Of a stretch of 23,649 nucleotides of DNA, positions 2,949-23,176 are shown piece after piece. The notes under the pieces are model-generated. The model had not been told where the DNA came from. It made no database searches and saw only the letters and a list, made by a program, of their open reading frames with translations. The stretch comes from a virus: IMG/VR virus record IMGVR_UViG_3300025824_000005, positions 1 to 23,649 of that record. The stretch is one strand, 5' to 3'. The first letter of the stretch is position 1, and every line of letters starts with the position of its first letter. Position numbers and translations under genes: made by a program.

Positions 2949-3500
2949 TTAAGATTGCCCGCCACGAACCGGACGCACATAACACATATCCCAAGGTCTG
3001 CCCCATGTCGTTTTATAACCGTCATAGGGATACATACACCACGCTCCGTCCGGCCAAGGCGCGCAGATTGTTGACGACCAGAACGGCGTCCATTGATCCG
3101 GTGGGTACGCAAAAAACATTGTGTCCCATGCCGGATCGTATCTCGAATGATCAACCATGGACATAAGCTCGTTTATATTCGGCATACGCCAGTCATCATG
3201 CCCGGCAAAAACAAAGTTCTCACAGGCATTAATAGCGTCATACCAATACATGGTCATCCCCAGCCCGACCGCCTGCGGATCCTTGATCCACATAAGACCG
3301 GTTACCGTATCGACCACAGTGCCGTCGCCGTTATCAATAAACCTCTGTCCGCCGCCAAGCGGATAGCCCATCTGATAATATCCATCATCACCCATCTGAT
3401 AAATCATCGTCTGTCCGGTCTTGGGCAGGCCGCCTTCCGTGGTTATTTCATTAACCCGGGTTATGATCCTGTTCTTTTTCTGATGCTTAATATGCTCCAT
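2949..3500 (-). CDS. DUF1566 (Lcl C-terminal-like, C-type-lectin-fold) adhesin-like protein
   Basis: A 183-residue protein with a strong SD (AGGAGG) before its ATG. After about 45 variable residues comes an essentially complete DUF1566 domain: RFIDNGDGTVVDTVTGLMW near 53-71, FAGHDDWRMPNINELMSMVD near 97-117, WTPFWSSTICA near 137-147 and YVRPVRGGQ at the C-terminus. DUF1566 is related to the C-type-lectin/FGE fold and is common in surface and tail-fibre proteins as a ligand-binding unit. Placement next to the virion-like gene and the radical SAM genes suggests a receptor-binding or fibre-tip role. The domain end rich in W, Y and D is where lectin-fold proteins vary, but no reverse transcriptase or template repeat is in the window. 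Confidence 0.85.
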   Translation of the reverse strand: MEHIKHQKKNRIITRVNEITTEGGLPKTGQTMIYQMGDDGYYQMGYPLGGGQRFIDNGDGTVVDTVTGLMWIKDPQAVGLGMTMYWYDAINACENFVFAGHDDWRMPNINELMSMVDHSRYDPAWDTMFFAYPPDQWTPFWSSTICAPWPDGAWCMYPYDGYKTTWGRPWDMCYVRPVRGGQS

Positions 3501-3515
3501 TTGAATTCCTCCTTT

Positions 3516-3806
3516 TTAGCTTTCGTAGGTCACAACGAGCTTGCCCGCGTCATCACCAGCCTTTATCACCCTGAAATCCTTTATGTGATAAATAGACGGA
3601 AGCTCGATTATATCGCCTTCCTCAAGCAACACGCCCGATGACACGCTCGGGTTCTGCCCATTAACGAAATACCGCATCGCCCCGCCTTCTGAACAAACCA
3701 TAGCGAATGACGCAGACTGACCGCCTGCCGGATTGTAAACAGCCTGGCTCAACGCCTTAGCGACATTCTCAACAACTATCTCCTCGTGACTCATCACTTT
3801 TCCCAT
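3516..3806 (-). CDS. small phage virion-like beta protein (head fibre or decoration type)
   Basis: A 96-residue protein with AGGAGG before the ATG. The pattern AKALSQAV, SFAMVCSEGGAMRYFVNGQN, then PSVSSGVLLEEGDIIELPS and IKDFRVIKAGDDAGKLVVTY looks like small beta-sandwich proteins often encoded near phage structural genes. Those typically carry an IRyr.DG..PT...G.ll..Gd.i.L motif. Family assignment is from memory and not verified. It lies directly after the third radical SAM gene, 13 bases downstream, so it is also a possible substrate of those enzymes, although it has only one cysteine. Confidence 0.65.
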   Translation of the reverse strand: MGKVMSHEEIVVENVAKALSQAVYNPAGGQSASFAMVCSEGGAMRYFVNGQNPSVSSGVLLEEGDIIELPSIYHIKDFRVIKAGDDAGKLVVTYES

Positions 3807-3819
3807 TGCCGTACCTCCT

Positions 3820-4977
3820 TTATTTAGTTTTGAACGCCTCTAATATTTCCTCATTCTGCTTGGCAACATCCACCAAAACCTGCCCGACTTTGTAAAGCAT
3901 CCGCTCCCTGCGGTCGCCTAACTCCACCGTCAAATACCTCGCCGCCTCGTCGTGCTCGAGCCTACACAACTTGCAGTATTTCTCGATTGGCTGGGCAAGA
4001 TCGCTATTGACCTTGTGATGCGTGATCACGCAACTATGGCAAGACGAAGCCGCCGGGCAATTCTTCCAGCAACCGGTGTATTCTTTATTGATGCTCAAAA
4101 ATACACCCCGGATAAACGGCCTCTCCTCAAAGATGTTGCCCAGCTTGAACACCCGGGCACTGGCCGCGCGGTGACATGGATACACATCGCCGTCCGACAA
4201 TATCGCCAGATAGGATTTCCCTGCTTCACAGAAATTCGACTCCGGCGGCACCTCGTCGTTAACAATCTTGAGCGGTTTATCGATGAACGCGATCTGAAGC
4301 GGGATCCCCTGCCGCTGACAATACCTGCGGTAGTGATACAGCTGATTGAGCTGATAGGCATATTTTTGAACCGCCTCATCCGTCCAGTCCGCTTCCATGA
4401 CCGCATGGTGCATGATCTTCTGCGCCCCCACATCCTGATGCAGAAACTGCACATTGATCGACAACCGGCCGACCGTCTTGGGCGTATACGTCATCCGCAC
4501 GCCTAAGTCCGGAAACACCGCGAGCATCTTCTTTGTGTTCTCAATGACCTTTGCCCAGTTGCCTTTTCGATGCTCCATGGTCGTGATCTCATCGCCGTCA
4601 CAACTGACCTGAATTGAAAACTGAAGCTCTTTGAATTGCTGAAAGACCTCCTCATCAAAGAACGTGCCATTCGTAGACACGCTGAAGACCGCCATGTGCC
4701 TGCCATCGATATCCGGCCAGAGTTCCCGGGCATACCGCGCCAAGTCCAAAACCGTCTGCGGAAATAACAGCGGCTCGCCGCCAAAGAATGTAATTTGAAG
4801 CCCATCCGGACTGATTACCTTCATTCGATCTAAAATCTTTTTGCCCTGATCCACTAAAAGCACGCCGTCACTTTTCGGATGAAAGCAATACTCACAATCC
4901 ATGTTGCACCGCTCTGTCACAAACAGATCGATGCTCCGGATTTCATTCTTATTCTTGCCACCCACTAAATCCCGCAT
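3820..4977 (-). CDS. radical SAM/SPASM protein, third of tandem cassette
   Basis: The ATG at 4975-4977 was chosen because AGGGG lies 7 bases upstream; it overlaps the preceding gene by 13 bases. The product is 385 residues. The radical SAM cluster motif is C24-NMD-C28-EY-C31, followed by GGEP at 66-69 and STNGTF near 101. The C-terminal SPASM region has C250, C268, C303, C307, C313, C316, C335 and C338, able to hold auxiliary iron-sulfur clusters. SPASM enzymes modify peptides or proteins (for example sulfatase maturases and RiPP-modifying enzymes) using SAM and an electron donor. The substrate is unknown. It differs from the other two copies in the linker and tail, so it is not a recent duplicate. 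Confidence 0.92.
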   Translation of the reverse strand: MRDLVGGKNKNEIRSIDLFVTERCNMDCEYCFHPKSDGVLLVDQGKKILDRMKVISPDGLQITFFGGEPLLFPQTVLDLARYARELWPDIDGRHMAVFSVSTNGTFFDEEVFQQFKELQFSIQVSCDGDEITTMEHRKGNWAKVIENTKKMLAVFPDLGVRMTYTPKTVGRLSINVQFLHQDVGAQKIMHHAVMEADWTDEAVQKYAYQLNQLYHYRRYCQRQGIPLQIAFIDKPLKIVNDEVPPESNFCEAGKSYLAILSDGDVYPCHRAASARVFKLGNIFEERPFIRGVFLSINKEYTGCWKNCPAASSCHSCVITHHKVNSDLAQPIEKYCKLCRLEHDEAARYLTVELGDRRERMLYKVGQVLVDVAKQNEEILEAFKTK

Positions 4978-6047
4978 AAACGTACCCCTTTCTCGATCTC
5001 GATATACCGCTTGGTTATTTTGAAAAGCACCCGGCACATCTTGCAAAACGACGGCTCAGGCTTAAACATATCTCCCATCCATTCAAGGTTCAGCCCAAGA
5101 CACTTGTTGCGCGGACATAAACCGTAAAGCTCGCACCCTTGGCAATGCTGACCCAAATACTTCTCCCGATCCGCATCGATCGCCCAAGCCAAGTCCAGCC
5201 GCGAATAATCAATGCCTGAATCGATATCTCCTAGCTTGTTATGCTGACAAATGTACATGTTGTCGCACTGCCAAATGCCGCCAGCGGTATCGATAAACAA
5301 CCTCTCCAGTCCTGACCGGCAATAATGAAACGGCCGCACCTGCGACTTAAGCCCAAATTCCATGAAATATAGATTGCTGTGTAATGCCGGGTTCATTGAC
5401 CGATACAAAGCCTCATCGTGGCGGTATTTCTCAAGCAGACGAAAATACTCATCCGCGAACCTCTCCAAATCTTCCTCTTTATGCTCAACCCGGGTTGCCA
5501 AGTCGATCGTGATATTGCGTGTCACGTTCTCAACCAAATAATCAAAGTCCTCAATAAACCGGTCATATTGCGTGACCATGAAGTTCACCGTATTGGCAGG
5601 GTTATCCTTAACCAGCCGAAATGCCCACGGCTCTGCCGCGACCTTCTGACGCAACCCGCCGTATTTCTCATAGCCATTGCCAAGCGACCACGTGATCCCC
5701 ATATTCCTGTGCGCCATGAACCAGCTGAACATCTCCTCTGTCACGGGCTTGCCGCTTGTGTTCGTATGAAACAAAAACTGGGGATACCTCTCCACAACTG
5801 CCTTGATGACCTTCATATTCAAGAGCGGTTCGCCTCCCCAAAAGAAGATCGAAAATTTAGCATCCAGTTCTAGCTTGGAAAAGGCAAAATCGAAAATACG
5901 AAACGCCATCTCCCCGCTCATGAAGGCAGGGCCCAACGCTTCCCGCTTGTTCCGCTCAAACAGCCCTCTCCGGTAACAGAAACTGCACCCTGCGTTGCAC
6001 GCATGCGTGAGATACAGATAAATAGATTTGTAAACCGGCGTTTTCAT
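4965..6047 (-). CDS. radical SAM/SPASM protein, second of tandem cassette
   Basis: A 360-residue protein whose ATG overlaps the stop of the first radical SAM gene (ATGA). The cluster motif is C17-NAG-C21-SF-C24, with GGEP at 71-74. The SPASM-like C-terminus carries C243, C261, C267, C302, C305, C311, C316, C335 and C338, including CQGCELYGLCPRNKC. Around GGEP and the following YPQFLFHTNTSG it resembles the first gene more than the third. It lacks an N-terminal extension. Tight overlap on both sides suggests the three enzymes are made together and may act in one pathway or complex. The reaction and substrate cannot be deduced. Confidence 0.92.
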   Translation of the reverse strand: MKTPVYKSIYLYLTHACNAGCSFCYRRGLFERNKREALGPAFMSGEMAFRIFDFAFSKLELDAKFSIFFWGGEPLLNMKVIKAVVERYPQFLFHTNTSGKPVTEEMFSWFMAHRNMGITWSLGNGYEKYGGLRQKVAAEPWAFRLVKDNPANTVNFMVTQYDRFIEDFDYLVENVTRNITIDLATRVEHKEEDLERFADEYFRLLEKYRHDEALYRSMNPALHSNLYFMEFGLKSQVRPFHYCRSGLERLFIDTAGGIWQCDNMYICQHNKLGDIDSGIDYSRLDLAWAIDADREKYLGQHCQGCELYGLCPRNKCLGLNLEWMGDMFKPEPSFCKMCRVLFKITKRYIEIEKGVRLCGI

Positions 6048-7237
6048 TTAATCCCCAGTTCGATCGCACGTCGCGCGATGTAATCAAACACGAAATACTC
6101 CACTCTGTTCGCCCAGCAATGATTGGCCGCTGGCTTCAACGGATTACCAGTCTTGATATAATTCTCTGCAAGGCACATTGCCCGAGGGCAAAGTCTTATA
6201 TCTTTAGCCTCACAAACCTCACAGTCCCGGCAATCCTCGTAAAGCCCTTCGATCCACTCACCCATCTTCTTAAAGAACAAAGCCGTTTCATTAAAACCGT
6301 TAAACACGTCGCCGATCTTGAACTCTGGAAAGTTAGCGAAGAAGTCACACGGATAAATCTCGCCCTTGTTATTGATCGCCAAGTACATATACCCACACCC
6401 GCAGAACGTAGGCGGCACATCCTTGATCGGCAACCCCTTGAGCCTGCGGTAGATGTTGTGGTGAAAAACTGAATCCCACTGACACCTGCCAAACTTAGGC
6501 AAACCTTCAAAGTAAACGTAATCGGCGACGCGTTTGAATAACGCCTTGAACGCCTCGTTCTTATCCCTGATGCGATCCCAATGCCGCGCGGTCGAAATCC
6601 TCACCACCGGCACCGGATACTCAAAAAGATATTTGATATCCTCAAAAATTCCCTGCTCGTCTGGATCATCAATAACGAAATGCACATCACCGCCGTTATG
6701 CCGAACCACATCAATCGCGGGCTTTGCCGCTTCCAAATATCCTTTGCCGAACTTCTGCTTCAATGCCCCGATACTGACACTCACCCGAAGCGTTCCTTTT
6801 CTTGACTTGACCCACTCCCGCGCTTCGGCGTTCTCTACCAGCACAAGGCCGTTCGTTGTGACCACATAAGGAAACATCGGATAGGTGTCGACCAAATACC
6901 GCACCATATCGAAATTCACAAACGGCTCGCCGCCAAAAATGCTGAATTTAACCTTGGCCTCATCAAACGTCCGCACCACAAAACCCATGGCGCAATCGAT
7001 AATCTCCCGCGAGATCCCGCTGTCCTTCTGCCTAAACTCCCGAGGCTGATAACAATAAGGACAATGAAGGTTGCAGTCCTGCGTCATCAGAAAATAAATC
7101 GTCGTGTAATCCGGCTTATTTGCGGTTACGGCATCAACGTCAAACTTGCCGTTTTCTTTGTAGCCTTTAATCACCTCTCGGCACAATGACGGCAGATCGC
7201 CTGTTGATTTGCTTTCTTCCAAAGTAAAAACGCTCAT
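6044..7237 (-). CDS. radical SAM/SPASM protein, first of tandem cassette
   Basis: The start is taken at 7237, where the ATG overlaps the stop of the 126-aa gene (ATGA); an ATG two codons earlier (7243) is possible. The product has 397 residues. It begins with about 45 residues of extension, then C55-NLH-C59-PY-C62 and GGEP at 102-105. The C-terminal auxiliary-cluster region has C279, C281, C297, C336, C339, C342, C350, C355 and C374, with GEIYPCDFF and LCPRAMC as SPASM hallmarks. The extension could bind a substrate, but no PqqD-like RRE fold is evident. It is the first gene of an unusual three-enzyme set inside a phage tail region. Confidence 0.92.
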   Translation of the reverse strand: MSVFTLEESKSTGDLPSLCREVIKGYKENGKFDVDAVTANKPDYTTIYFLMTQDCNLHCPYCYQPREFRQKDSGISREIIDCAMGFVVRTFDEAKVKFSIFGGEPFVNFDMVRYLVDTYPMFPYVVTTNGLVLVENAEAREWVKSRKGTLRVSVSIGALKQKFGKGYLEAAKPAIDVVRHNGGDVHFVIDDPDEQGIFEDIKYLFEYPVPVVRISTARHWDRIRDKNEAFKALFKRVADYVYFEGLPKFGRCQWDSVFHHNIYRRLKGLPIKDVPPTFCGCGYMYLAINNKGEIYPCDFFANFPEFKIGDVFNGFNETALFFKKMGEWIEGLYEDCRDCEVCEAKDIRLCPRAMCLAENYIKTGNPLKPAANHCWANRVEYFVFDYIARRAIELGIK

Positions 7238-7614
7238 TTCCATTCCAAGTGATAAAGATTCGTATCAACCTCAACCGTCTCGAATCCAAGACGGTCTTTG
7301 ATATTTTTCTTCTGCTCATCGGTCAGAGGCATAATGCCCGCGAGATACAACTCGCCTTTTTTCTCGCCAGATATAAAGAAACTGAAATTTGCAATCTTGC
7401 CGCGTTCATCGATGATCCCCAAACCTTGAATGGTCAGCTTTAACGCATTGCTGAAATCCTCTGGCTTATCAAACCGCCCCTTCGTGAACCCATTAACCCG
7501 CTGATCATCAAGATTCATCCGCACCCAATAAATGAGTTCGGTCACAGGATTGTCCTTCGTGTCTTTTGCGACCTTCAATGTCTTTGGCTTACTTGCCTCA
7601 AAACTCGGAAACAT
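7234..7614 (-). CDS. 126-aa protein of unknown function upstream of radical SAM genes
   Basis: The start codon at 7612-7614 has GAGG 5 bases upstream. The product looks mixed alpha/beta: TELIYWVRMNLDDQRVNGFT, then an EDFSNALKLTIQGLGIID helix-strand, FSFFISGEKKGELYLAGIM, and a C-terminal FETVEVDTNLYHLEWK. There are no cysteines, membrane segment or signal peptide. It is coupled to the first radical SAM gene by a 4-base overlap, so it may be a partner protein, a substrate or a virion component. I do not recognise the family, and it does not look like the PqqD/RRE domain of RiPP systems. Confidence 0.7.
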   Translation of the reverse strand: MFPSFEASKPKTLKVAKDTKDNPVTELIYWVRMNLDDQRVNGFTKGRFDKPEDFSNALKLTIQGLGIIDERGKIANFSFFISGEKKGELYLAGIMPLTDEQKKNIKDRLGFETVEVDTNLYHLEWK

Positions 7615-7620
7615 ATATCC

Positions 7621-8343
7621 TCACCATGTGTACGGATTGCATTTGCAATTCCAGTCCGAATGCACCGCGCCCCAGTTATACCCGGGTGGCGTATAGTTAC
7701 ACTGCGGCGACCACGGCACATATCCATCCCAAGGTGTCGTGTTTAACGGCTCACCGGAAGCCGTTTTATACGGATGCGTCGTCCCCCCGGGCAGGTTGTA
7801 ACTCGCGCAAATCCTGTGATCTACCATGCTGTGATGACACTCGCTGTATTTGTGGTCATCGCAAGCAACCCCCGCGTGCGAACACGTCTGATAGTAATAC
7901 CCGCAATCCGCGCAATACTGACACTGTTCTGCCTCACAAATACAGCCGGTCATTAACGCCTGCAGTTTCGACCGCAATTCGGAAACGTGATCATTCCTCG
8001 CCTTAATGGTGTTCGCCGTAAGCGTCGGATCCGTAAAATCCATACACCCGGACGAATCTTGCACGCAATACCCCGACTCGCCCCTGCCGGTCTTAACGTT
8101 CTGCAACTCCACCCGCAATTCAGCAACATGATCGTTGCGGATTTTAATAAGATCAGCTGTAAGCGTTACGTCTGTAAACGTCGCTGTCGACAAACCCCGG
8201 CGCGTGAACTCCAGATTGACCTTTGTCCGCAGTTCCTCGACATGGTCATTCCTTACCTTAATCGTATTGGCGGTCAAAGCCGGATCCGTCCACGTCGGCG
8301 TATTTACCGGACACTGTTTTGGCGGTAATTTATGCTCTGGCAT
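7621..8343 (-). CDS. Cys-rich phage protein with three TDPTLTANTIK..RNDHV.ELR repeats
   Basis: A 240-residue protein with AAAGGA before its ATG, 7 bases after the fibre gene. Residues 18-42, 56-81 and 103-128 are three diverged copies of FTDPTLTANTIKxRNDHVxEL. From memory, similar TDP.lta...ikavH..ELR modules occur in bacterial secreted or surface proteins. The C-terminal 107 residues hold 12 cysteines (134, 136, 141, 144, 147, 154, 161, 169, 179, 215, 233, 235) plus many His, Tyr, Trp and Pro. This part could bind metal, form disulfides, or be a substrate for the radical SAM enzymes encoded just downstream. Most likely it is a fibre or appendage protein; the function is not established. Confidence 0.8.
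   Translation of the reverse strand: MPEHKLPPKQCPVNTPTWTDPALTANTIKVRNDHVEELRTKVNLEFTRRGLSTATFTDVTLTADLIKIRNDHVAELRVELQNVKTGRGESGYCVQDSSGCMDFTDPTLTANTIKARNDHVSELRSKLQALMTGCICEAEQCQYCADCGYYYQTCSHAGVACDDHKYSECHHSMVDHRICASYNLPGGTTHPYKTASGEPLNTTPWDGYVPWSPQCNYTPPGYNWGAVHSDWNCKCNPYTW
7960..8292 (-). repeat. three diverged tandem protein repeats within the Cys-rich gene
   Basis: The units span 8218-8292, 8101-8178 and 7960-8037. Each encodes about 25 residues with TADP/TDPTLTA, NTIK.RNDHV and ELR in the same order. Nucleotide identity is only partial, so the copies are old and kept by selection on the protein. The first and third copies share GGATCCG within the repeat. Confidence 0.85.
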
Positions 8344-8350
8344 CTATCCT

Positions 8351-9391
8351 TTACTCCGCATACGTCGCGTTCGGGAACGCGAACTCTAAACCTGTTTCAT
8401 CAGCCTTCACCCTGACAGACTTTCCTGCCTGCCCGGTATAGTTGGACGGACAATCCGTCAAGGCAACGAAAGACGACATCCCCAGTAAAAACAAAGGCCG
8501 GACATCCTTATATATGTAGGCGTCGTTAGGATTAGCGTCCTTGCTCTCATAATCCACGACCTTGGTCATTGTCGGCTTGCAATACACAAGGCATATCGGA
8601 AACTTCCCCGATGGAAACGCTGGCTCTGCCGGGTTAGACGCCTCCGCGCCGGTCGTCCATTCCAATACGCCTGCCGAGTTGATCGTCAGCAAATCGATCC
8701 TTGGATTAGCACCCGGCGCTGTTATAAGCGATGATGCCCCGCCTGCGTAAGTTAACCTTGTTGATCCGATATAAATGTTCTGATAAAACCCGCCGACCAA
8801 AGCCGAAGCAACCGCCACATTCATTCCGCACACTGCCGTAATGGTGTCGAATAGAAAAGTCTGGGAAGCTGGCAATTGATAAAACCCAAAATCGGTGATA
8901 TTTGACAACACTGCCGCTGTGCCGTTGTTTCCATCAGGCGTCGCCAAGGTTAGAGTGTCTTTTTTCCAAGTCCCCGCCGTCCCATGAGAAGTCAAATTCC
9001 AATAGCTCACATGCCCAAGGTTATCTTCAAGGAAGAACCTAAAAGCCTGACTCGCGCCTGAGCACCTCTCCCATAGCGTAATCTGTTTAAAACTGGACAA
9101 ATTAACGCCCTTAATAAGCGTGACCTGCCGGTTAGGCGTCGCGTCAATCACACACTGCAAGGCATAATTACCTTCCTGCTTCGTAGTTGAACGCGTAACC
9201 GTCACGCCAGTTCCCGACCATTTGGCTTGAGCCACTGCATCCGTTGAATACTCAAGGTCATCCAATACCATTGATGACCGAGGCCGTAACGCAAACAAAT
9301 CTCCTTGAAATAAAGCCCGCAAAACATTGCGAACATTTTCCAGCGACATAGAACCTGTCGGCTGGTTTGGATCGAAAATATGTCTTTCCAT
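8351..9391 (-). CDS. tail fibre / receptor-binding-type protein
   Basis: A 346-residue protein. The ATG at 9389-9391 has AAAGG 6 bases upstream; a TTG two codons earlier is less likely. The middle (about 45-180) begins VLDDLEYSTDAVAQAKW and includes ITLWERCSG and FRFFLEDNLGHVSYW, a jelly-roll layout like carbohydrate-binding or discoidin-type domains. The C-terminus has FVALTDCPSNYTGQAGKSVR followed by VKADETGLEF, close to a motif common at the ends of phage tail-fibre proteins. It follows the tail hub and a mini zinc ribbon. It probably sits at the tail tip and binds cell-surface sugar. Assignment rests on domain style and gene order. Confidence 0.75.
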   Translation of the reverse strand: MERHIFDPNQPTGSMSLENVRNVLRALFQGDLFALRPRSSMVLDDLEYSTDAVAQAKWSGTGVTVTRSTTKQEGNYALQCVIDATPNRQVTLIKGVNLSSFKQITLWERCSGASQAFRFFLEDNLGHVSYWNLTSHGTAGTWKKDTLTLATPDGNNGTAAVLSNITDFGFYQLPASQTFLFDTITAVCGMNVAVASALVGGFYQNIYIGSTRLTYAGGASSLITAPGANPRIDLLTINSAGVLEWTTGAEASNPAEPAFPSGKFPICLVYCKPTMTKVVDYESKDANPNDAYIYKDVRPLFLLGMSSFVALTDCPSNYTGQAGKSVRVKADETGLEFAFPNATYAE

Positions 9392-9393
9392 GA

Positions 9394-9531
9394 TCAACCT
9401 TTCTTCTTAATAATTTCCGTATCGCATGCCGGACACTTGCCGGTGTACGCTTTGGTTCCGTTTTTCAGCGTGCTTTCTTTTAACTCCGCAATCTCAACCA
9501 ACACCTTGCATGTCGCGCAATAGCCCTTCAT
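9394..9531 (-). CDS. 45-aa zinc-ribbon protein (DUF5679-like)
   Basis: The ATG at 9529-9531 has AAAGGA about 7 bases upstream, just after the tail-hub stop. The peptide begins MKGYCATCKVLVEIAELKES and later has KCPACDTEIIKKKG, so two CxxC knuckles are about 28 residues apart. This matches the tiny DUF5679-type zinc ribbon frequent in phages and prophages. It probably binds one zinc ion; its role in tail or late expression is unknown. Confidence 0.8.
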   Translation of the reverse strand: MKGYCATCKVLVEIAELKESTLKNGTKAYTGKCPACDTEIIKKKG

Positions 9532-9532
9532 A

Positions 9533-12500
9533 TCAATATCCTTTCACGTCGATATCAACCTCAGCGGTGCCAATGGCCGCGCCGTTACGGTCATAAACCT
9601 TGATATCGCACTGTGTCGTTGTTTTATTGGAAACGATCGGCATGCCGACAATGCCGTTGACGATCGTCACCGTAATCCTCGGCGGGTAATTAAAACCAGT
9701 ACCGAATAAAATCGTCTTTCCCTGCACCGGAATTGCCACATCTCTAAACCACGAAAGTTTTGTCACCGGCGCGTTGATATAAAGCCGACAACTATAAAAA
9801 TAAAAATGATGACTCGGATCAGTTGTCGAAATCACGAATTTGAACTTAATATAGCGGCCGGTGTAAGTCGTGAATGCATCAATAGGCGCAAATTCCGTAT
9901 AACTTACCCCGTCCGATGAAACACTTATCTGCACCTCAAGCGAACCGCCCGAAACATTCTTAAAATCCGCGTCGATAATCACCTTGAACTCAAACACCGT
10001 AAGTAAATCAATCGGTGAGAGCATCTCAAAAAAACCGGTCGTCTTAGTCTGGCCATTTAAATTCAAGCCGCCGCCAGTCTCTTGCGCCTCCCACGTCAAC
10101 CCTTGCGCCTGTCGATCCTCCCAAAACATATCCGTCTTTAAACACAACGCTGGCCGGACATACCCTGAATCGAAATCGTTCGTGTAAACCAACTCAACGT
10201 TGCTCAATCGATACTGCAGATCCTGACTCCACAAATCGAAGTCATTGATAAAATTCATCTCTGGCGGCGGGGTAATGACTATCGAATCCATCCCGGGTGA
10301 TGGGCTTTCATTACCGGACGTATCAACCGCCTTGATCATGAACGTCACATTACCGATCTCACCTACCGGATACATAAACTCCGTTGTATCCGTCCTCTCT
10401 GCGATCACTTGACCGGCATTCCACTCCGAACCTTTCCTGATCACATACCGGGCAAGATCCGCATCCGCGATCGCATCCCAGCTGAACCTTAAAAAATTAC
10501 CCTCCTGTGAAACCTCGAATCCGGTAACATCCGATGGCGGGTTGAGTTTTCCCAAGACTGTCAAATCAGAAGATTCCAAACCGTCTGATACGATCCCATT
10601 AATCGATACAGTCCTGACCTTAATCCGATACGTCTGCTCATCTTCAACGCCAAAGACCGTGAAATATGTATCTGTCGTTGTCCCGACAACCTTATAATCC
10701 TCCGCGCCTTTTTTGAGTTCAATCTGATAATGGCTCAAGAAAATCTTTGAATCATCCGTCGGCCCGTCAAAGCTGACCAGAATATCTGAGCCAACCGTTC
10801 CGTCGCGATGCAGATAGTAAAGACTTTCTGAAATCTGAATGCTGGAAACCTCTCCCACCGGCGCGTAAGGATTCGGCGGCGTGCCATAATCAAACGACTG
10901 AATTGTCGCGCCGTAACGGTCGTTATAAATCGTAGGGTTATATTCCTGCGCCGTTATTTTGAATAGATCCCGCTCATCTTCCTCAATGCGCTGAATGATA
11001 AACTGCTTATTCGTCCAACCCATCAATGAGTGCGTAACTTCAATAACGTCACCGATCTCCTGACCTATGGCGTTAAGCGAAGTTGTAAACTCCACACAGA
11101 TCGGGCAAAGTTTAAGCTCGTAAAAATATTGATTGCTCAACCGAGAAGCCTGCGTCTTGCGGTTAATGGACGGAATCGTTAATGTCTGCTCGACAAGCCC
11201 GCGTTCGTCCTGATCAACCTTGTCCTCCGCGCCCCACGCAAGGATCCTTGCGTCATCCTGCGTCGGATCGAAATACTCGATACCGAAACGGTTAATCTTC
11301 TGATCCAACCCCTTCTGAATCACCTTTAAATCCGTGATGTCATCCTCGTCGAATGATGCAACCGCGCTCTGGGTCTTGGCCACCAGCAATTTGAGCTTTG
11401 AACCGCTACGTATAAGCGCGCCCGCGAACCCCACCAACATCTCGGTGAGGTTATCTGAAGCCGTTCGTTTCTGATCAATCACAAACGAAACGGTATACCT
11501 TGACTCCTGCCCTCCCTGACCGTTTGATACCAGATCCACACAGTAGTCATAGACCTCACCAAACGACATATCGTCGATATCCGCTGTAAGATACCCGCAC
11601 CCGCCGACCTGCATCTTCATCAAAAGATAATCACGGATACATGCCGACGGATTATCCGAATACGAATGTCCGGCCGACCACGCCGAACCGTTCCATGTCG
11701 AAACTTTCCGGCCACGGCATATACACGTTACGTTCGGCCTGCCGCCTTTTAACTTATCCGAGGTTTCCAGATGAACATGAAGCATGGCGGTATTGTGATA
11801 TTGAATACCGTCTAAATCCAGCCCCGTATCCGTCTGCACATTTTGTGCAGGCGTTCCCAAGAATGCACGATACGAACACCCGGGAAAGTTGCCAATCACC
11901 TCACCGTTTAACCTGACATCCGTAATGCTTTCAATTTCGCCCGCGCAAAGAACGATAAGCAAGTCTATCTGCTCGCCGCCCATCACCGGATTTTGATAAA
12001 CGATATTGCCGCCCAATCGCGCCTCGCCGTAAAGCACCGGCACCGGATATTGATTGCTGGATGTAGTCTGCAACTCTCCAAATTGATATCGGGGTGAAGA
12101 CGACGACCCGCCGCTTTTTGACGTCTGCCGTGCCTGAATAGCCAATCCAATCGAATACCCGATTAAAGCCGTACCAATCAAATAGCCAATCGTAGTAAGC
12201 GACAAAGCGATCAAACCACCGGCAATGAAAGACGCCACGGCGTAATCCGCAATCACCAGCGCAATTGCAATAGCCACTGGGGGCCCCGCTGGCGGGATAT
12301 AAATCTTGCCGTCCTTCTCTCTGATAGCAAAAAGGAAGTATTTTTCCCAAGACGACGTGAGCCGCGAAATACGGGATTTACCGTCCTTCTTAGCATGAAG
12401 CATGCGGCCATAACCGAGATACAACCCGACATGCAATTCGTCGTTGATCTTAAAAACCAGAACGTCTTCGGGCTGAATGCCCTCAAGTAGAACAATCGTG

Positions 12501-12703
12501 TTGATCTCGATGATTCTTTTAACGATTTCGTCCTGTGTTTCAGACGTAAACTCACTGATCTTAGGCGCGACACCTTCCACGCCCTTGGCAGTAAAATACA
12601 ACTGCATAAGCCCAACACAGTCCGTTCCGGAATAATCACGGCCGTCCTGAAGCCATTTGATCCCGACCAATTTGTTAAGCAGTTCCGTATCGAGCTTCTT
12701 CAT
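9533..12703 (-). CDS. tail tip hub: NlpC/P60 peptidase fused to lambda J-like protein
   Basis: A 1056-residue protein whose ATG overlaps the DUF2163 stop (ATGA). Residues about 15-125 form a C40 (NlpC/P60) peptidase: Cys29 in GTDCVGLMQ, His91 in ELHVGLYLGYG and His103 as probable third polar residue. A hydrophobic glycine-rich stretch (about 143-190) resembles lambda gpI, then the J-like hub starts near YQFGELQTTSSNQYPVPVLY. Fibronectin type III-like parts lie around 640-830, and a beta-rich C-terminus closes the protein. It probably forms the tail tip, digests peptidoglycan on entry and carries the fibres. In lambda, K, I and J are separate genes, so the fusion is notable, although similar fusions exist in other phages. 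Confidence 0.9.
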   Translation of the reverse strand: MKKLDTELLNKLVGIKWLQDGRDYSGTDCVGLMQLYFTAKGVEGVAPKISEFTSETQDEIVKRIIEINTIVLLEGIQPEDVLVFKINDELHVGLYLGYGRMLHAKKDGKSRISRLTSSWEKYFLFAIREKDGKIYIPPAGPPVAIAIALVIADYAVASFIAGGLIALSLTTIGYLIGTALIGYSIGLAIQARQTSKSGGSSSSPRYQFGELQTTSSNQYPVPVLYGEARLGGNIVYQNPVMGGEQIDLLIVLCAGEIESITDVRLNGEVIGNFPGCSYRAFLGTPAQNVQTDTGLDLDGIQYHNTAMLHVHLETSDKLKGGRPNVTCICRGRKVSTWNGSAWSAGHSYSDNPSACIRDYLLMKMQVGGCGYLTADIDDMSFGEVYDYCVDLVSNGQGGQESRYTVSFVIDQKRTASDNLTEMLVGFAGALIRSGSKLKLLVAKTQSAVASFDEDDITDLKVIQKGLDQKINRFGIEYFDPTQDDARILAWGAEDKVDQDERGLVEQTLTIPSINRKTQASRLSNQYFYELKLCPICVEFTTSLNAIGQEIGDVIEVTHSLMGWTNKQFIIQRIEEDERDLFKITAQEYNPTIYNDRYGATIQSFDYGTPPNPYAPVGEVSSIQISESLYYLHRDGTVGSDILVSFDGPTDDSKIFLSHYQIELKKGAEDYKVVGTTTDTYFTVFGVEDEQTYRIKVRTVSINGIVSDGLESSDLTVLGKLNPPSDVTGFEVSQEGNFLRFSWDAIADADLARYVIRKGSEWNAGQVIAERTDTTEFMYPVGEIGNVTFMIKAVDTSGNESPSPGMDSIVITPPPEMNFINDFDLWSQDLQYRLSNVELVYTNDFDSGYVRPALCLKTDMFWEDRQAQGLTWEAQETGGGLNLNGQTKTTGFFEMLSPIDLLTVFEFKVIIDADFKNVSGGSLEVQISVSSDGVSYTEFAPIDAFTTYTGRYIKFKFVISTTDPSHHFYFYSCRLYINAPVTKLSWFRDVAIPVQGKTILFGTGFNYPPRITVTIVNGIVGMPIVSNKTTTQCDIKVYDRNGAAIGTAEVDIDVKGY

Positions 12704-13587: not shown

Positions 13588-14169
13588 TTACGGCGCGGTG
13601 TAAATATTCCACAACGCCTCTTTGAACTTCACTGAAGTGTTATAAAGTTTAAATTGCACCAACTCCTTCGATAACTTGTCATCGTCGAAACGCACCTGAA
13701 TGTAATACTCATAGTCAGCCGTAATGACTGCGCCGTTTGCTGGCGCGGGCGAAAAAGTAATTTTCGCCAACTCATTCGTTAAATCGTTGATAATACTGAC
13801 ACCGCTTGTCCGCAAAATTCCGTTCACATAAACTTTGACTGAAGCGGTATCAACCGGAAAGTAATCGAGATTGAACACCGTCTGCAAACCGTTGCCGGTG
13901 CCGACCGCTTCCGCCGTTACTTTATAACTCGTCGGAAACTTCACCCAAAACGTATCGTACTTGCCTTGTCTGGCTTTAAAGAAATCCCATATAAGCCCAA
14001 CCCCCGTTTCGCTTTGGTTACCAAGAGAACAATTAAGCGTACGAATAGGCCGTGACCATTTAGCCCTGCGTTTTTCTTTTCCGCTGTCCGCCTGAAAAAT
14101 GAGTGTCGAGAACTCAACGTCCTCTTGAAGGCCGAACTCCGGCGTGAAAATCAAAACTGCGGTACTCAT
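13588..14169 (-). CDS. DUF2460-family distal tail protein
   Basis: A 193-residue protein whose start overlaps the tape-measure stop (ATGA). It begins MSTAVLIFTPEFGLQEDVEF and carries KWSRPIRTLNCSLG, GLIWDFFKARQGKYDTFWVK and a C-terminal VQFKLYNTSVKFKEALW, matching the DUF2460 layout (GTA gp12-like distal tail ring). It probably forms the hexameric collar between the tail tube and the hub. An Ig-like strand set (about 88-150, with VKVYVNGILRTSG) seems to be inserted into the usual domain. Confidence 0.85.
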   Translation of the reverse strand: MSTAVLIFTPEFGLQEDVEFSTLIFQADSGKEKRRAKWSRPIRTLNCSLGNQSETGVGLIWDFFKARQGKYDTFWVKFPTSYKVTAEAVGTGNGLQTVFNLDYFPVDTASVKVYVNGILRTSGVSIINDLTNELAKITFSPAPANGAVITADYEYYIQVRFDDDKLSKELVQFKLYNTSVKFKEALWNIYTAP

Positions 14170-15716
14170 AGCCTATTCCTCATGGCGTTACGAATCGGCT
14201 TGTTCTTATTAAGCGCGTCGATAATCGCATTCTCAAAAACATCCGGGTGCTGAACAAGCAAATCCCTGAATGATTTCGCGTCATTGGCGTTAATGTAGAC
14301 ATTAAACATCTGGCTTGTTTCGCCGATTCCATCTCCGCGATTTAACCGTTTCAAATTACCTGATCCCAAAGCCGACATGCCCCGCCGCGACACCACTCCC
14401 TCGCCGGACTGCGCGATAATCGGAATCTCATCCGGAGCAAGGCCCGAGTGCGCGCGGATAGGTTGCACAACCCCGCCCGCGTGATAAACCATCCCGCCTT
14501 CATGAAAGAAAGGAATCATGCCCGGGAACATTGCCCCTACCGTCTTAATCAAAATCATCTTGGCAAAAACCTCGGCTAAAACGTCCAGCATCATATTCCC
14601 GAACTCTGCAAAATAATCTTTTGCGTCATCCAGCTGACCGCGAAACGCATCACTAAAGAAATGTTTAAACGCGCTTCCCAGCGAACGCGCAGTTCCCTCC
14701 GCTACGGACTGAAGCGCGTCAAACTTCTGCGCTACCTCCTTAATATCAATTTCATTGCCAAGACCTTTGAGTGAATCGACAAAACCTTTGATTGCCGCTC
14801 TGGCTTTGTCGTATCCTTGAGCTAAACTACCCTCTCCGGTCGAAAGCGTATTTGAAATCTTTTCGCCTACGCGCGACATCTCTACGTCGGACGCCCTAAT
14901 AAGCTGTTGCAGATTTTCCCGAAACTTCTCGAGATTCTGTGCCGCCTCGCGGTAAGGCTCGCCTAACCGTCCAGGCAACTTGCCCAGAATTTCATAAAAC
15001 TTTATAAGACCAATCGTGACATTATCGAAACCTACCAAAAGGTATTTGATGAGTTTGACGAACCCGATGTAAACCATCTGCGCACCGATCTCAATCGCAT
15101 TCAAGACCGGCACAGCAACGTCTCTGAATTTAAGAAAGACGACAATAAGCCCGGCAACAACAACCGCGATCCCCACAAGCCATGGATTCGCCAAGGCAAA
15201 CAACGCGAACTTAGCCACCAAATCGATAATAATTCCCCCAAGCCTCGTGAACCTACCGACCAAAGACAGTACGATCCCTCCGAACATTAAAAATATTCCG
15301 GTCATTGCGATCGATTGAACAATCAACCCCTGAGTCGCAGGCGACAAACTGTTCCAAATATTGAGCAAATTACCGAAAACATTGGCCACCTGATGCACAA
15401 CCGGCACCAATGCCTCGGCGATGCTCACTCTTAAACCGATGAACGCGTTATCAAGACGCTTTAGTTCGTTGGAAACGGATATCGAATACTTCTCTGCGGA
15501 TTTGAATGCGAGTGCCAAGGGGCCCGTTAACGCGCCGCCCATGAAGATAAGATTCTGGCCGACCTGCGATATTTCACGGCCGACCTGACGCATAGTTCCG
15601 CCAAGCTGTTTGCAGGAATTGGCGAACTTCTGAATATTGCCCTCTATTCCCTGCAGACGCTTGGTGATTTCGTCTTTTAACTTCATCACAATCTCAAGCT
15701 CACGATTGGTCGGCAT
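14166..15716 (-). CDS. tape measure protein
   Basis: A 516-residue protein with GAGGAG just before its ATG. The N-terminus is helical (EIVMKLKDEITKRLQGIEGN), hydrophobic segments lie at about 130-160 and 165-195, a long helical region follows, and the tail has the glycine motif HEGGMVYHAGGVV with IIAQSGEGVVSRRGMSALG. These are hallmarks of phage tape measure proteins, which set tail length and later leave with the DNA. Using the rule of about 0.15 nm per residue, the tail would be short, near 75-80 nm. Its position after the frameshifted chaperone pair supports the call. Confidence 0.92.
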   Translation of the reverse strand: MPTNRELEIVMKLKDEITKRLQGIEGNIQKFANSCKQLGGTMRQVGREISQVGQNLIFMGGALTGPLALAFKSAEKYSISVSNELKRLDNAFIGLRVSIAEALVPVVHQVANVFGNLLNIWNSLSPATQGLIVQSIAMTGIFLMFGGIVLSLVGRFTRLGGIIIDLVAKFALFALANPWLVGIAVVVAGLIVVFLKFRDVAVPVLNAIEIGAQMVYIGFVKLIKYLLVGFDNVTIGLIKFYEILGKLPGRLGEPYREAAQNLEKFRENLQQLIRASDVEMSRVGEKISNTLSTGEGSLAQGYDKARAAIKGFVDSLKGLGNEIDIKEVAQKFDALQSVAEGTARSLGSAFKHFFSDAFRGQLDDAKDYFAEFGNMMLDVLAEVFAKMILIKTVGAMFPGMIPFFHEGGMVYHAGGVVQPIRAHSGLAPDEIPIIAQSGEGVVSRRGMSALGSGNLKRLNRGDGIGETSQMFNVYINANDAKSFRDLLVQHPDVFENAIIDALNKNKPIRNAMRNRL

Positions 15717-19083: not shown

Positions 19084-20040
19084 TTAAGCAACCTTCATGA
19101 GGTGCGCGAAGTACGGATCAATGACGATCTCGTCCACATGCTGGCGCACGCGGAAGATATCGCTTCGTGACGCGTCATCACGATACTGCTCGACCGTCGC
19201 ATTCTCCGGACTGTCAGACGACCAAAGGAATGTCCTTCCAACACTCGGATCAGAAAGACGATTCGCATCGCCAATCACCGCGACCATGGCGTAAGAGGCA
19301 TTCCAAATATCGCCATTGATGAACGTCTTGCCTTCCTTGGCGGTGTTATAAATTCCCCTGCCGACAAGGATGTTCTTTACACCCAAAACGTCCGCAAGAG
19401 CGTTTAATATCTCCGCCTCGGTTAACCGCGCCACGTACTTAATACAATCTTTGATGACGCTGTTATTCAACAGCCGGTCAAGATTCGCCTTGCTGAAGAT
19501 GAGCGTGCTGGGGTCGATGCCGCTATTGGCACGCACCTTCTCGCGGATTGCGCGCACCTGCGCGATCACATCAGTCGATGCGCTCGTCCAAGGCGTTGCC
19601 GAGTTATCGGTGTAAAGCTGAGCACCGGTAAACATGGTCGTATTAAACATAAGTCCAGCGACACGCCGCTCCTGCGCCTGCAAGACCCTGCGGGTAACGA
19701 TTTGAACTGTCGTCAGCTCAGCGTCGAAGTCGGTGGAGTAAAGCGTTCTTTCGCCGTCGTCCAATACGCCTTCAAGACCGAACTCCTCGCAGTTGTACTG
19801 CTTGTCCTTGGCCGAGAAACCGTCGCGGTTGTAGTTTCCGCGCGGGGCGCGTTTGGTATCAGCCTCGCGGGTGATACTTTCACGCGTGATCGCCGGAAAG
19901 ATACTCGATTTCTTTTTGGTTTGAAAAATCGGCAGAACTTGAGTGCCGATAAACTCGTTTTGCTGTTGCGTAAACTCCAAAGTCGCCTCTCCCAGATCCA
20001 ACCTAGGCACTGCTCTTGAACCTGAATAATCAACTCCCAT
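19084..20040 (-). CDS. major capsid protein (phage capsid E family)
   Basis: A 318-residue protein with GAGGAGG before its ATG. LDLGEATLEFTQQQNEFIGT, QVLPIFQTKKKSSIFPAI, YNCEEFGLEGVLDD and the central TLIFSKANLDRLLNN with ILNALADVLGVKNILVGRG form the typical capsid-E (lambda gpE-type, HK97 fold) pattern. The C-terminus has the DIFRVRQHVDEIVIDPYF beta strands of the P domain. It follows the protease/scaffold and decoration genes. Copies of this protein form the procapsid shell. Confidence 0.92.
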   Translation of the reverse strand: MGVDYSGSRAVPRLDLGEATLEFTQQQNEFIGTQVLPIFQTKKKSSIFPAITRESITREADTKRAPRGNYNRDGFSAKDKQYNCEEFGLEGVLDDGERTLYSTDFDAELTTVQIVTRRVLQAQERRVAGLMFNTTMFTGAQLYTDNSATPWTSASTDVIAQVRAIREKVRANSGIDPSTLIFSKANLDRLLNNSVIKDCIKYVARLTEAEILNALADVLGVKNILVGRGIYNTAKEGKTFINGDIWNASYAMVAVIGDANRLSDPSVGRTFLWSSDSPENATVEQYRDDASRSDIFRVRQHVDEIVIDPYFAHLMKVA

Positions 20041-21580: not shown

Positions 21581-23176
21581 TTATTTCCCAGCACCAGCTT
21601 GTTGATCGTCTTGGTTTGGATCCGCGATCGTTTTGTTTTGATTCGTTTGATTCCCATTGAATGCTTGCTCCAGCCCCAATTCTTTAATTTTGGTTTCTTC
21701 GCGTTTACGTTGCTCGAAACTCTCCTCCCAATCTTTGCCTTCCTGCGCGTAAATATCCGAGAACGTGACGATGCCGTTCTTTAACCCGACCTCTGCGGCC
21801 TGCGCTTCTTTTAACGGATCCACCCATTCCCAGCCCGGGGCGATCCAAGACGCGCCAGTCCAATAACGCTTGTTTTCGTAAAATGTGTCCGCGCTGATTT
21901 CACCGCGAAGATACGCCTCCTCTAAAACCATCTCCCAAATCGGCTGACAGAGTTTTCGAGCAAGCCATTCCTGCCGCATTTTGAAATAACGCCTCGCCTC
22001 AAGTAATGCCGCTCGCGCGCTCGAATAATTTGTTTTACTGAAATCTTTAGCCACCAGTTCATACGGCAAACCTAACGCCGCCGAAATTGCTTTTAAGATG
22101 CGATCTACGAACGGCTCAAAACTCGCCCCCGGCCTCTGCGGATTAAACGATGTGATACTCTCACCCGGCATTAAGTGCTTAATCATTCCCGGCTCTAGGC
22201 TCTCGAGAAGCTGACCTGACGGATTTCTGTCATATGCGCCGCCAGCTGATACGTCCATCGATGCTTCGGATGTGATAAAAAGAGAGAAACACGCCGCGAT
22301 CCGCGCGGCCACCAGCTCAGCTTCCGCGTATTCTCCAAGGTCTTTGAAATAAGTCAAAACCGGAGCGAAGAACGGAACTCCCCGCGTCTGCCCGGAACGC
22401 TGGACGTAATAAAGATGAAAAACATTTCTGCGGCCGTATTCGTTCTTGGCCGGTATCTCGGTAAATACTCTTTCGGCTTGCTTGGTATAGCGAATATCAC
22501 CGGGATGCGTCTTTTGAATGAAATACGAAACCGGTTCGCCCTTTTCGCCGATCTTCACGCCTGAACGTATCGACCGGTCACCCTGCATGCCGGTCGGCGT
22601 ATCCAACCGGTCTGATTCGATAATTTGCAAAGCCAACGAATACGGACGGTCTGGATCCTGAAGCATCATCGGGATGATAATTGCCTCGCCGTTTTCTAAA
22701 ATCTGTCTATCAACGAGTTCTTGAATCTCGTAAAAATCCATGCGGTTGCCAGCGTCCGCATACGACGTCCATTTCTTCCAAACACGCTCCGCGTCTTTCT
22801 GAAACGTACTTGCCGTACTCTCATCCATTCCAAGTGACTCTTTATCAATCCGCGACTGCGGACGAATGCCTGATCCGACCACATTGGTGGTCATAGTAGA
22901 GGTGATGCCTGACGCATGCGCGTCGTTGCGATTTAAGTCGCGGCTACGCTCCCTGATGTCTTTTAATTCAGGCAATAAGTCCGAGTCCGCAGAACCGCCG
23001 CCCGGGATCCACGATGAACGAAGCCGATCGCGGGAAGCACCTTTATAAGAACCGAACGAATCCGATAACTTGATCGCTTGCCGGAACATGCTTCTTTTGA
23101 AACCGGCCCGGGGAGAAAAAAACGAAATGAGACCGTCTAAACCACCCGACAACCTGTCAGAAAAAGTTTTTTTCAT
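21581..23176 (-). CDS. portal protein (lambda gpB-like, phage_portal_2)
   Basis: A 531-residue protein whose ATG overlaps the gpW-like stop (ATGA). Near residues 50-106 it has RLRSSWIPGGGSADSDLLPE and RERSRDLNRNDAHASGITST, then NVVGSGIRPQS, the hallmarks of the lambda-type portal. Later come IIESDRLDTP, FHLYYVQRSGQTRGVPFFAP and ISAALGLPYELVAKDFSKTN, then a YSSARAALLEARR helix near 385. Portals form the 12-fold DNA gate and bind the terminase, which should be encoded just beyond the window. The C-terminal tail is Gln/Asn-rich. Confidence 0.95.
   Translation of the reverse strand: MKKTFSDRLSGGLDGLISFFSPRAGFKRSMFRQAIKLSDSFGSYKGASRDRLRSSWIPGGGSADSDLLPELKDIRERSRDLNRNDAHASGITSTMTTNVVGSGIRPQSRIDKESLGMDESTASTFQKDAERVWKKWTSYADAGNRMDFYEIQELVDRQILENGEAIIIPMMLQDPDRPYSLALQIIESDRLDTPTGMQGDRSIRSGVKIGEKGEPVSYFIQKTHPGDIRYTKQAERVFTEIPAKNEYGRRNVFHLYYVQRSGQTRGVPFFAPVLTYFKDLGEYAEAELVAARIAACFSLFITSEASMDVSAGGAYDRNPSGQLLESLEPGMIKHLMPGESITSFNPQRPGASFEPFVDRILKAISAALGLPYELVAKDFSKTNYSSARAALLEARRYFKMRQEWLARKLCQPIWEMVLEEAYLRGEISADTFYENKRYWTGASWIAPGWEWVDPLKEAQAAEVGLKNGIVTFSDIYAQEGKDWEESFEQRKREETKIKELGLEQAFNGNQTNQNKTIADPNQDDQQAGAGK

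Follow-up and report, generated by a model that had tools for sequence, protein, structure and literature searches.

What are three radical SAM enzymes doing in the tail region of a phage? The window analyzed here, 23,649 nucleotides of the viral record IMGVR_UViG_3300025824_000005 (positions 1 to 23,649 of that IMG/VR record), carries three consecutive genes, rSAM-A, rSAM-B and rSAM-C (A, B and C below), each encoding an enzyme with a SPASM-type C-terminus. A first-pass annotation had proposed that they form a phage-borne set for modifying a virion protein. Synteny, matches to peptide maturases and recurrence in other phages support this proposal, and they point to a putative target, a 240-residue Cys-rich protein whose gene heads the A-B-C series. 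That gene had not been named as the target in the annotation, and it turns a general guess into a specific model. We consider it likely that A, B and C serve a dedicated post-translational modification, wherein they cross-link, probably through thioethers, the Cys-rich part of a tail-tip or adhesin protein. We favor this model because of the synteny, the phylogeny of the trio, the affinity of the enzymes to peptide-thioether maturases, the recurrence of the arrangement, the fusion of Cys clusters to tail proteins and a repeat shared between otherwise different Cys proteins.

The successive enzyme genes overlap by 4 nucleotides (A/B) and 13 nucleotides (B/C); the program-made open reading frame (ORF) for rSAM-C begins at 5046, within rSAM-B. 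Each enzyme contains the motifs CxxxCxxC and GGEP, which are invariant among relatives, as are the radical SAM and SPASM cysteines of all three (the cluster cysteines of rSAM-A were checked in 12). The Pfam Radical_SAM cut-off of 29.5 bits is exceeded by C and A but missed by B (Table 1). Likewise, the SPASM domain scores above the curated cut-off in C (PF13186, cut-off 21.5 bits) and A (TIGR04085, cut-off 27 bits), whereas rSAM-B reaches 23.8 bits with TIGR04085. The Cys set is nevertheless retained in rSAM-B, in which CxxxCxxC and seven SPASM-type cysteines are kept even in the most distant relative, L045. ORFs, Pfam and NCBIfam matches and conserved cysteines thus agree with the first-pass description of three adjoining, overlapping genes of this type. 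Its remark that the first two enzymes are more alike also holds: A and B share 28% identity (106 bits, versus 76.6 for A/C and 43 for B/C) and are sisters in the tree (support 93/96), B being the most diverged enzyme.

Among NCBIfam models, NF047865 (PapB) matches all three enzymes best, with 169 bits for C, 103.7 for A and 91.8 for B. These scores lie far below the cut-off of 340, and the enzymes are therefore PapB-like rather than PapB. The closest solved structure by profile is in each case 5wgg (E 8e-19 for A, 2e-13 for B and 5e-22 for C), which we take to be the SCIFF maturase CteB; a second match for rSAM-B is 8vpo (E 7e-13). The CteB/ScfB maturases are a thioether-forming family. The phage enzymes differ from it in lacking a recognized N-terminal recognition element (RRE) of the kind that binds leader peptides, and no six-Cys SCIFF peptide was seen among the ORFs of the cassette, by which we mean the Cys-rich gene, A, B, C and the small genes beside them. 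The SCIFF model TIGR03974 yields 92, 74 and 49 bits across the three enzymes, missing its cut-off of 425, and other equivalog models likewise stay below theirs. The best matches are peptide-thioether maturases rather than the nucleotide or cofactor enzymes QueE and NrdG: phrog_1802 is the best PHROG match, and QueE/NrdG-type PHROGs are weaker (phrog_2076, E 5e-4 to 5e-3; phrog_626, E 0.003).

The Cys-rich protein is built of two unlike halves. Its N-terminal part contains three copies of a helical repeat of about 33 residues (TDPxLTA...R..H..ELR), and its C-terminal half bears CICEAEQCQYCADCGY. Ten cysteines and the adjacent E137, E139 and D146 are invariant among 17 homologues, and D162, beside a conserved cysteine, is nearly invariant. 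In an AlphaFold model with a mean predicted local distance difference test score (pLDDT) of 48.7, helices at residues 30-48, 66-85 and 113-132 correspond to the repeats, and the Cys-rich half, modeled at pLDDT below 50, is disordered. Such a model would fit a chain whose fold needs bonds that AlphaFold cannot know. In the window and in all homologues this dedicated Cys-rich gene lies next to the maturase genes, as in the pathways for ribosomally synthesized and post-translationally modified peptides (RiPPs). The pairing of enzymes and Cys-rich protein is well supported, and the protein is the likely substrate of A, B and C. The first-pass annotation had placed the enzymes in a late tail operon, which is borne out by the portal, major capsid, tape measure and J-like genes; its label "fibre-type" for the Cys-rich gene does not stand.

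A scan of 2.9 million viral contigs yielded about 20 related contigs, which fall into three lineages with different tail genes. The Cys-rich gene heads A-B-C, in the same order, in every contig long enough, and none that contains this gene plus sequence past it lacks the rSAM genes. The entire tail is conserved in lineage 1. Members of lineage 2 (L021 and L023-L028) have a J-like protein of only 25-31% identity and, in place of the 348-aa gene, an unrelated gene of 165-179 aa, but the order of the Cys-rich gene, A, B and C is retained at 57-71% identity. Lineage 3, the 92-kb contig L045, has another tail module and lacks the 126-aa gene; the Cys-rich gene and the trio are still side by side there (50% identity for the Cys-rich protein and 37, 40 and 50% for A, B and C), and the 96-aa and Lcl_C genes are not directly downstream of C. 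A, B and C each form a clade that includes L045, so the trio is older than the split of the lineages and moves as a unit.

These comparisons also bear on whether the enzymes serve a different protein. The Cys-rich product might be a metal-binding or disulfide-knotted tail protein, since metals or disulfides can stabilize Cys-rich adhesins, and A, B and C might have a different target among phage or host proteins, such as the 348-aa, J-like or 96-aa product. The 96-aa and Lcl_C genes are indeed often kept in the cassette. In lineage 2, however, the 348-aa gene is replaced and the J-like gene highly diverged, and in L045 neither the 96-aa nor the Lcl_C gene directly follows C, whereas the Cys-rich gene always stays. 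Moreover, SPASM enzymes are repeatedly paired with Cys clusters in unrelated phages. We therefore regard another substrate as improbable, although it is the most serious competitor of a modified Cys-rich protein.

To describe this recurrence, we defined a Cys cluster as at least 6 cysteines in 30 residues and counted an ORF as near when it lay within 2 kb of a radical SAM gene. Across 31 survey loci, Cys-cluster ORFs made up 27 of the 212 ORFs near such genes and 4 of the 264 farther away (p=5e-7), and after removal of the loci that had raised the idea they made up 12 of 123 and 2 of 116, respectively (p=0.007); because the loci were selected for their radical SAM genes and served as controls through their own flanks, these figures measure local clustering, not prevalence. 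In phage SPN3US, scanned piecewise, only 2 of 272 ORFs carry a Cys cluster, and both lie 1.2-1.6 kb from its sole two radical SAM genes. The Cys-repeat proteins found beside SPASM-type enzymes are diverse: they end in CTCTCT tails in L086-L089, L091-L093 and L105, carry CNCNFCPC in L097 and L111, contain 31-35 cysteines in the two proteins of L095 and 81 in that of L098, and occur also in L100, L069 and L063. In the jumbo phages SPN3US (L070), CR5 (L071) and ChrisDB (L065), two radical SAM genes stand beside two or three Cys-repeat genes and adjoin a structural protein, an arrangement similar to that of the window, but CSGSC repeats make up the Cys part, and the relationship of the enzymes is distant (about 25-32% identity).

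None of the Cys-rich proteins of the window, L086, L095 and L111 retrieved a match when used to search the phage collection. In a comparison with 294 proteins, the N-terminal repeat of the window's protein recurs in the Cys proteins of L086 and L088, which rank at the top (E 3-4e-6) and whose CTCTCT tail is entirely different. This suggests that the anchor part was retained and the Cys part swapped. In the same comparison the repeat was not found in the jumbo phages, and candidate matches in L097 and L111 (E 0.08-0.14) were near background and are not claimed.

In several phages the Cys cluster is part of a tail protein itself. The tail fibre gp028 of Achromobacter phage JWF (L072, 3691-5142) carries CNCDCNCNCSC immediately followed by a Hint domain, with a SPASM-type radical SAM gene one gene away; this self-processing domain could free the Cys-rich end. 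In L101 a J-like hub (Phage-tail_3, phrog_31) with a long Cys-rich C-terminal part adjoins a SPASM-type enzyme. L096 and L103 encode, directly after the radical SAM gene, a fusion of an N-terminal Cys repeat with immunoglobulin (Ig)-like repeats that match a PHROG labeled "Hoc-like head decoration". We lean, by a modest measure, towards a widespread and so far undescribed class, wherein phage SPASM enzymes would put radical-made cross-links into Cys-rich segments of tail proteins, and which would have emerged in numerous phages that are unrelated and differ in their Cys repeats, the Cys segment being sometimes fused to a fibre or hub.

Phage nd12 has an Ig-repeat protein related to that of L096 and a reverse-transcriptase-like gene in place of the radical SAM gene; this protein, with a possibly variable domain, and the reverse-transcriptase-like gene (L149, 6097-8876) resemble a diversity-generating element. 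Some Cys-repeat ORFs of the three jumbo phages are unannotated or overlain by a gene called on the opposite strand. Four tandem radical SAM-like genes occur in the phage tail regions of L094, L106 and L107; a small Cys-cluster protein lies inside the cluster of L094, and a 68-aa protein with ACDCNCDCNC is encoded upstream in L107. In the gut phage Phass-1, of the code-15 clade, a radical SAM gene that is split in the record is directly followed by an unannotated ORF (L137, about 7147-7670) whose two ends each bear Cys clusters. No support is drawn from human-gut "phage" records such as MT835472, since their locus resembles a bacterial SCIFF locus. L068, deposited as a bacteriophage, encodes a SCIFF-like peptide of 47 aa (7492-7635) beside its radical SAM gene and is therefore probably bacterial DNA.

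A scan of genomes linked the cassette to a host phylum. Matches came from three contigs labeled Omnitrophota and one contig of a metagenome-assembled genome labeled Ruminococcaceae, which is probably mis-binned; in the latter a frameshift or an assembly error divides rSAM-A (L048, 8776-10004) between two overlapping frames. The complete genome of Candidatus Velamenicoccus archaeovorus (Omnitrophota) contains a prophage with a portal 79% and a major capsid protein 76% identical to those of the window, and its Cys-rich, A, B and C proteins are 93-96% identical to those of phage L026; in this prophage, too, the Cys-rich gene stands at the head of A-B-C. Contrary to a location mainly in host genomes away from phage genes, copies lie in prophages or phage-like contigs, with the same cassette and phage neighbors. 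Among 285 genomes sampled from the same phylum, 3 contained the cassette protein and 6 more the repeat region alone. In several of these genomes the repeats sit within large predicted secreted proteins with at least 50 cysteines (L141, L143, L144 and L146). A repeat type common to the phage protein and to predicted exported proteins of Omnitrophota is consistent with an adhesin or surface-binding role.

A further possibility is that the cassette makes a secreted RiPP-like product for the lysogen, such as a bacteriocin-type toxin or a lysogenic-conversion factor, and not a part of the virion. SPASM enzymes with Cys-rich precursors are typical of RiPP pathways, a lysogen bearing the cassette exists, and the N-terminal repeats resemble the predicted secreted proteins. 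On the other hand, Pfam, NCBIfam and PHROG searches of the cassette revealed neither a peptidase nor a transporter that could serve as leader protease or exporter, and the candidate precursor is 240 aa long, has no obvious signal peptide and is encoded between tail genes of a late operon. Elsewhere, as described above, Cys clusters belong to tail proteins, and the pair is also present in jumbo phages such as SPN3US. We give a secreted product a slightly smaller chance than another substrate. A metabolic or cofactor role that aids the host when oxygen is low, along the lines of the metabolic role suggested for the 11-12 radical SAM proteins of Campylobacter phages CP220 and CPt10 (PMC2853527), is very improbable here, since peptide maturases match best, QueE/NrdG-type PHROGs are far weaker, and three coupled SPASM enzymes adjoin a conserved Cys-rich gene with no metabolic genes.

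Several points weigh against cross-linking of a Cys-rich tail protein. The survey loci were picked for their radical SAM genes, loci of one group are not fully independent, and 1 of the 12 near Cys-cluster ORFs of the reduced set is antisense. The SPASM-type genes of L066, L104, L106 and L113 have no Cys-cluster neighbor by the definition used. Asp/Glu residues are rare or absent around repeat types such as CTCTCT and CNCNFCPC, and thus one PapB chemistry cannot cover all cases. Finally, no RRE was recognized in the enzymes by Pfam or NCBIfam, nor in the 126-aa protein, which was considered as an RRE and rejected (AlphaFold model with pLDDT 71; best PDB match only E 0.15), although at this pLDDT a divergent RRE may be present.

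For the modification of the Cys-rich protein by A, B and C, we infer the substrate, the bond, the place in the virion and the benefit as follows. Once the 240-aa protein has been produced from the late operon, the enzymes would dock on its N-terminal helical repeats, which would present the Cys region to them and would later bind the tail or the host surface. A, B and C would act on the Cys-rich C-terminal half, most likely joining Cys sulfur to carbon of nearby residues, each enzyme perhaps at its own sites. The finished protein would form part of the tail tip and provide a rigid tip or adhesin resistant to proteases and redox changes. PapB joins Cys to Asp or Glu and accepts Cys-Xn-Asp with n=0-6 (PMC9413430). 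Like PapB, the window's enzymes combine radical SAM and SPASM, and their Cys-rich partner has acidic residues near conserved cysteines; a Cys-to-Asp/Glu thioether could possibly form at E137, E139, D146 and D162. Unlike PapB, there are three paralogues instead of one, and the partner is a 240-aa protein of a late operon instead of a short precursor peptide.

SPASM peptide maturases are known from natural-product pathways. The enzyme type is familiar, and its use on a large protein of the phage tail region and its spread over unrelated phages are apparently new; the open-access literature, preprints excluded, yielded no paper that connects radical SAM enzymes with phage tails and Cys-rich proteins, or SPASM enzymes with Cys-rich phage proteins. 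Many radical SAM genes in one phage genome have been seen earlier, in CP220, CPt10 and T4-like marine phages, and were termed highly unusual or metabolic (PMC2853527, PMC5332604); unlike in the window, the CPt10 enzyme examined here (L066) has no Cys-cluster partner within 2 kb. If the modification model is correct, phages would hold a large and as yet untapped reservoir of such enzymes, with substrates that are large and have multiple sites, and many unexplained phage radical SAM genes would gain a function, including those of well-studied jumbo phages whose partner is partly unannotated. It would also offer a chemical explanation for tail parts that endure harsh, anoxic settings. The prophage ties the cassette to a predatory ultramicrobacterium grown in enrichment culture, for which public proteomic data exist (PXD025008, from an enrichment in which this organism dominates; named in PMC12583861).

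Profile matches describe the surroundings of the cassette as a siphovirus-like late operon on one strand, with portal, scaffold, major capsid protein, tail terminator, tape measure and J-like genes in addition to A-B-C (Table 1).

Table 1. Genes of the late operon and the cassette, with positions in the 23,649-nucleotide window
Feature	Position	Strand	Match or remark
Portal protein	21581..23176	-	phrog_21, E 4e-129
Major capsid protein	19084..20040	-	phrog_1005
Tape measure protein	14166..15716	-	phrog_1533, E 6e-17
J-like central tail fibre protein	9533..12703	-	phrog_31, E 2e-78
348-aa tail-type protein, upstream of the Cys-rich gene	8351..9397	-	phrog_11660 tail protein at the C-terminus, E 2.5e-6
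Cys-rich candidate substrate, 240 aa, 15 Cys	7621..8343	-	adjoins the rSAM genes wherever the contig continues
126-aa accessory gene, overlapping the rSAM-A start	7234..7614	-	kept in lineages 1 and 2
rSAM-A, radical SAM/SPASM enzyme, 399 aa	6044..7243	-	PF04055, 31.9 bits; TIGR04085, 34.7 bits
rSAM-B, radical SAM/SPASM-type enzyme, 360 aa	4965..6047	-	PF04055, 22.1 bits; PapB model, 91.8 bits
rSAM-C, radical SAM/SPASM enzyme, 385 aa	3820..4977	-	PF04055, 59.5 bits; PF13186 (SPASM), 29.6 bits
96-aa conserved gene, downstream of rSAM-C	3516..3806	-	relatives 45-78% identical
183-aa Lcl_C (DUF1566-type) protein	2949..3500	-	PF07603, 94.5 bits

The 126-aa gene is 29-57% identical over lineages 1 and 2 (29-37% in lineage 2 where found) and 96% identical in the nearest phage; it is missing from L045 and hence dispensable there. 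Its product has no match in Pfam, NCBIfam or PHROG and no PDB fold match at E<=0.001, and it may act as an adaptor. Searches of Pfam, NCBIfam and PHROG with the 96-aa protein likewise returned no family match. The Lcl_C gene is 93% identical to that of the lineage-2 phage L024 (10560-11111), whose rSAM proteins are 63-69% identical to those of the window, which points to a recent exchange of the Lcl_C gene. Between the J-like and 348-aa genes, a 45-aa ORF (9394-9531, minus strand) encodes a zinc-ribbon-like protein with two CxxC pairs, and this ORF is also found in L016, L017, L019 and L020.

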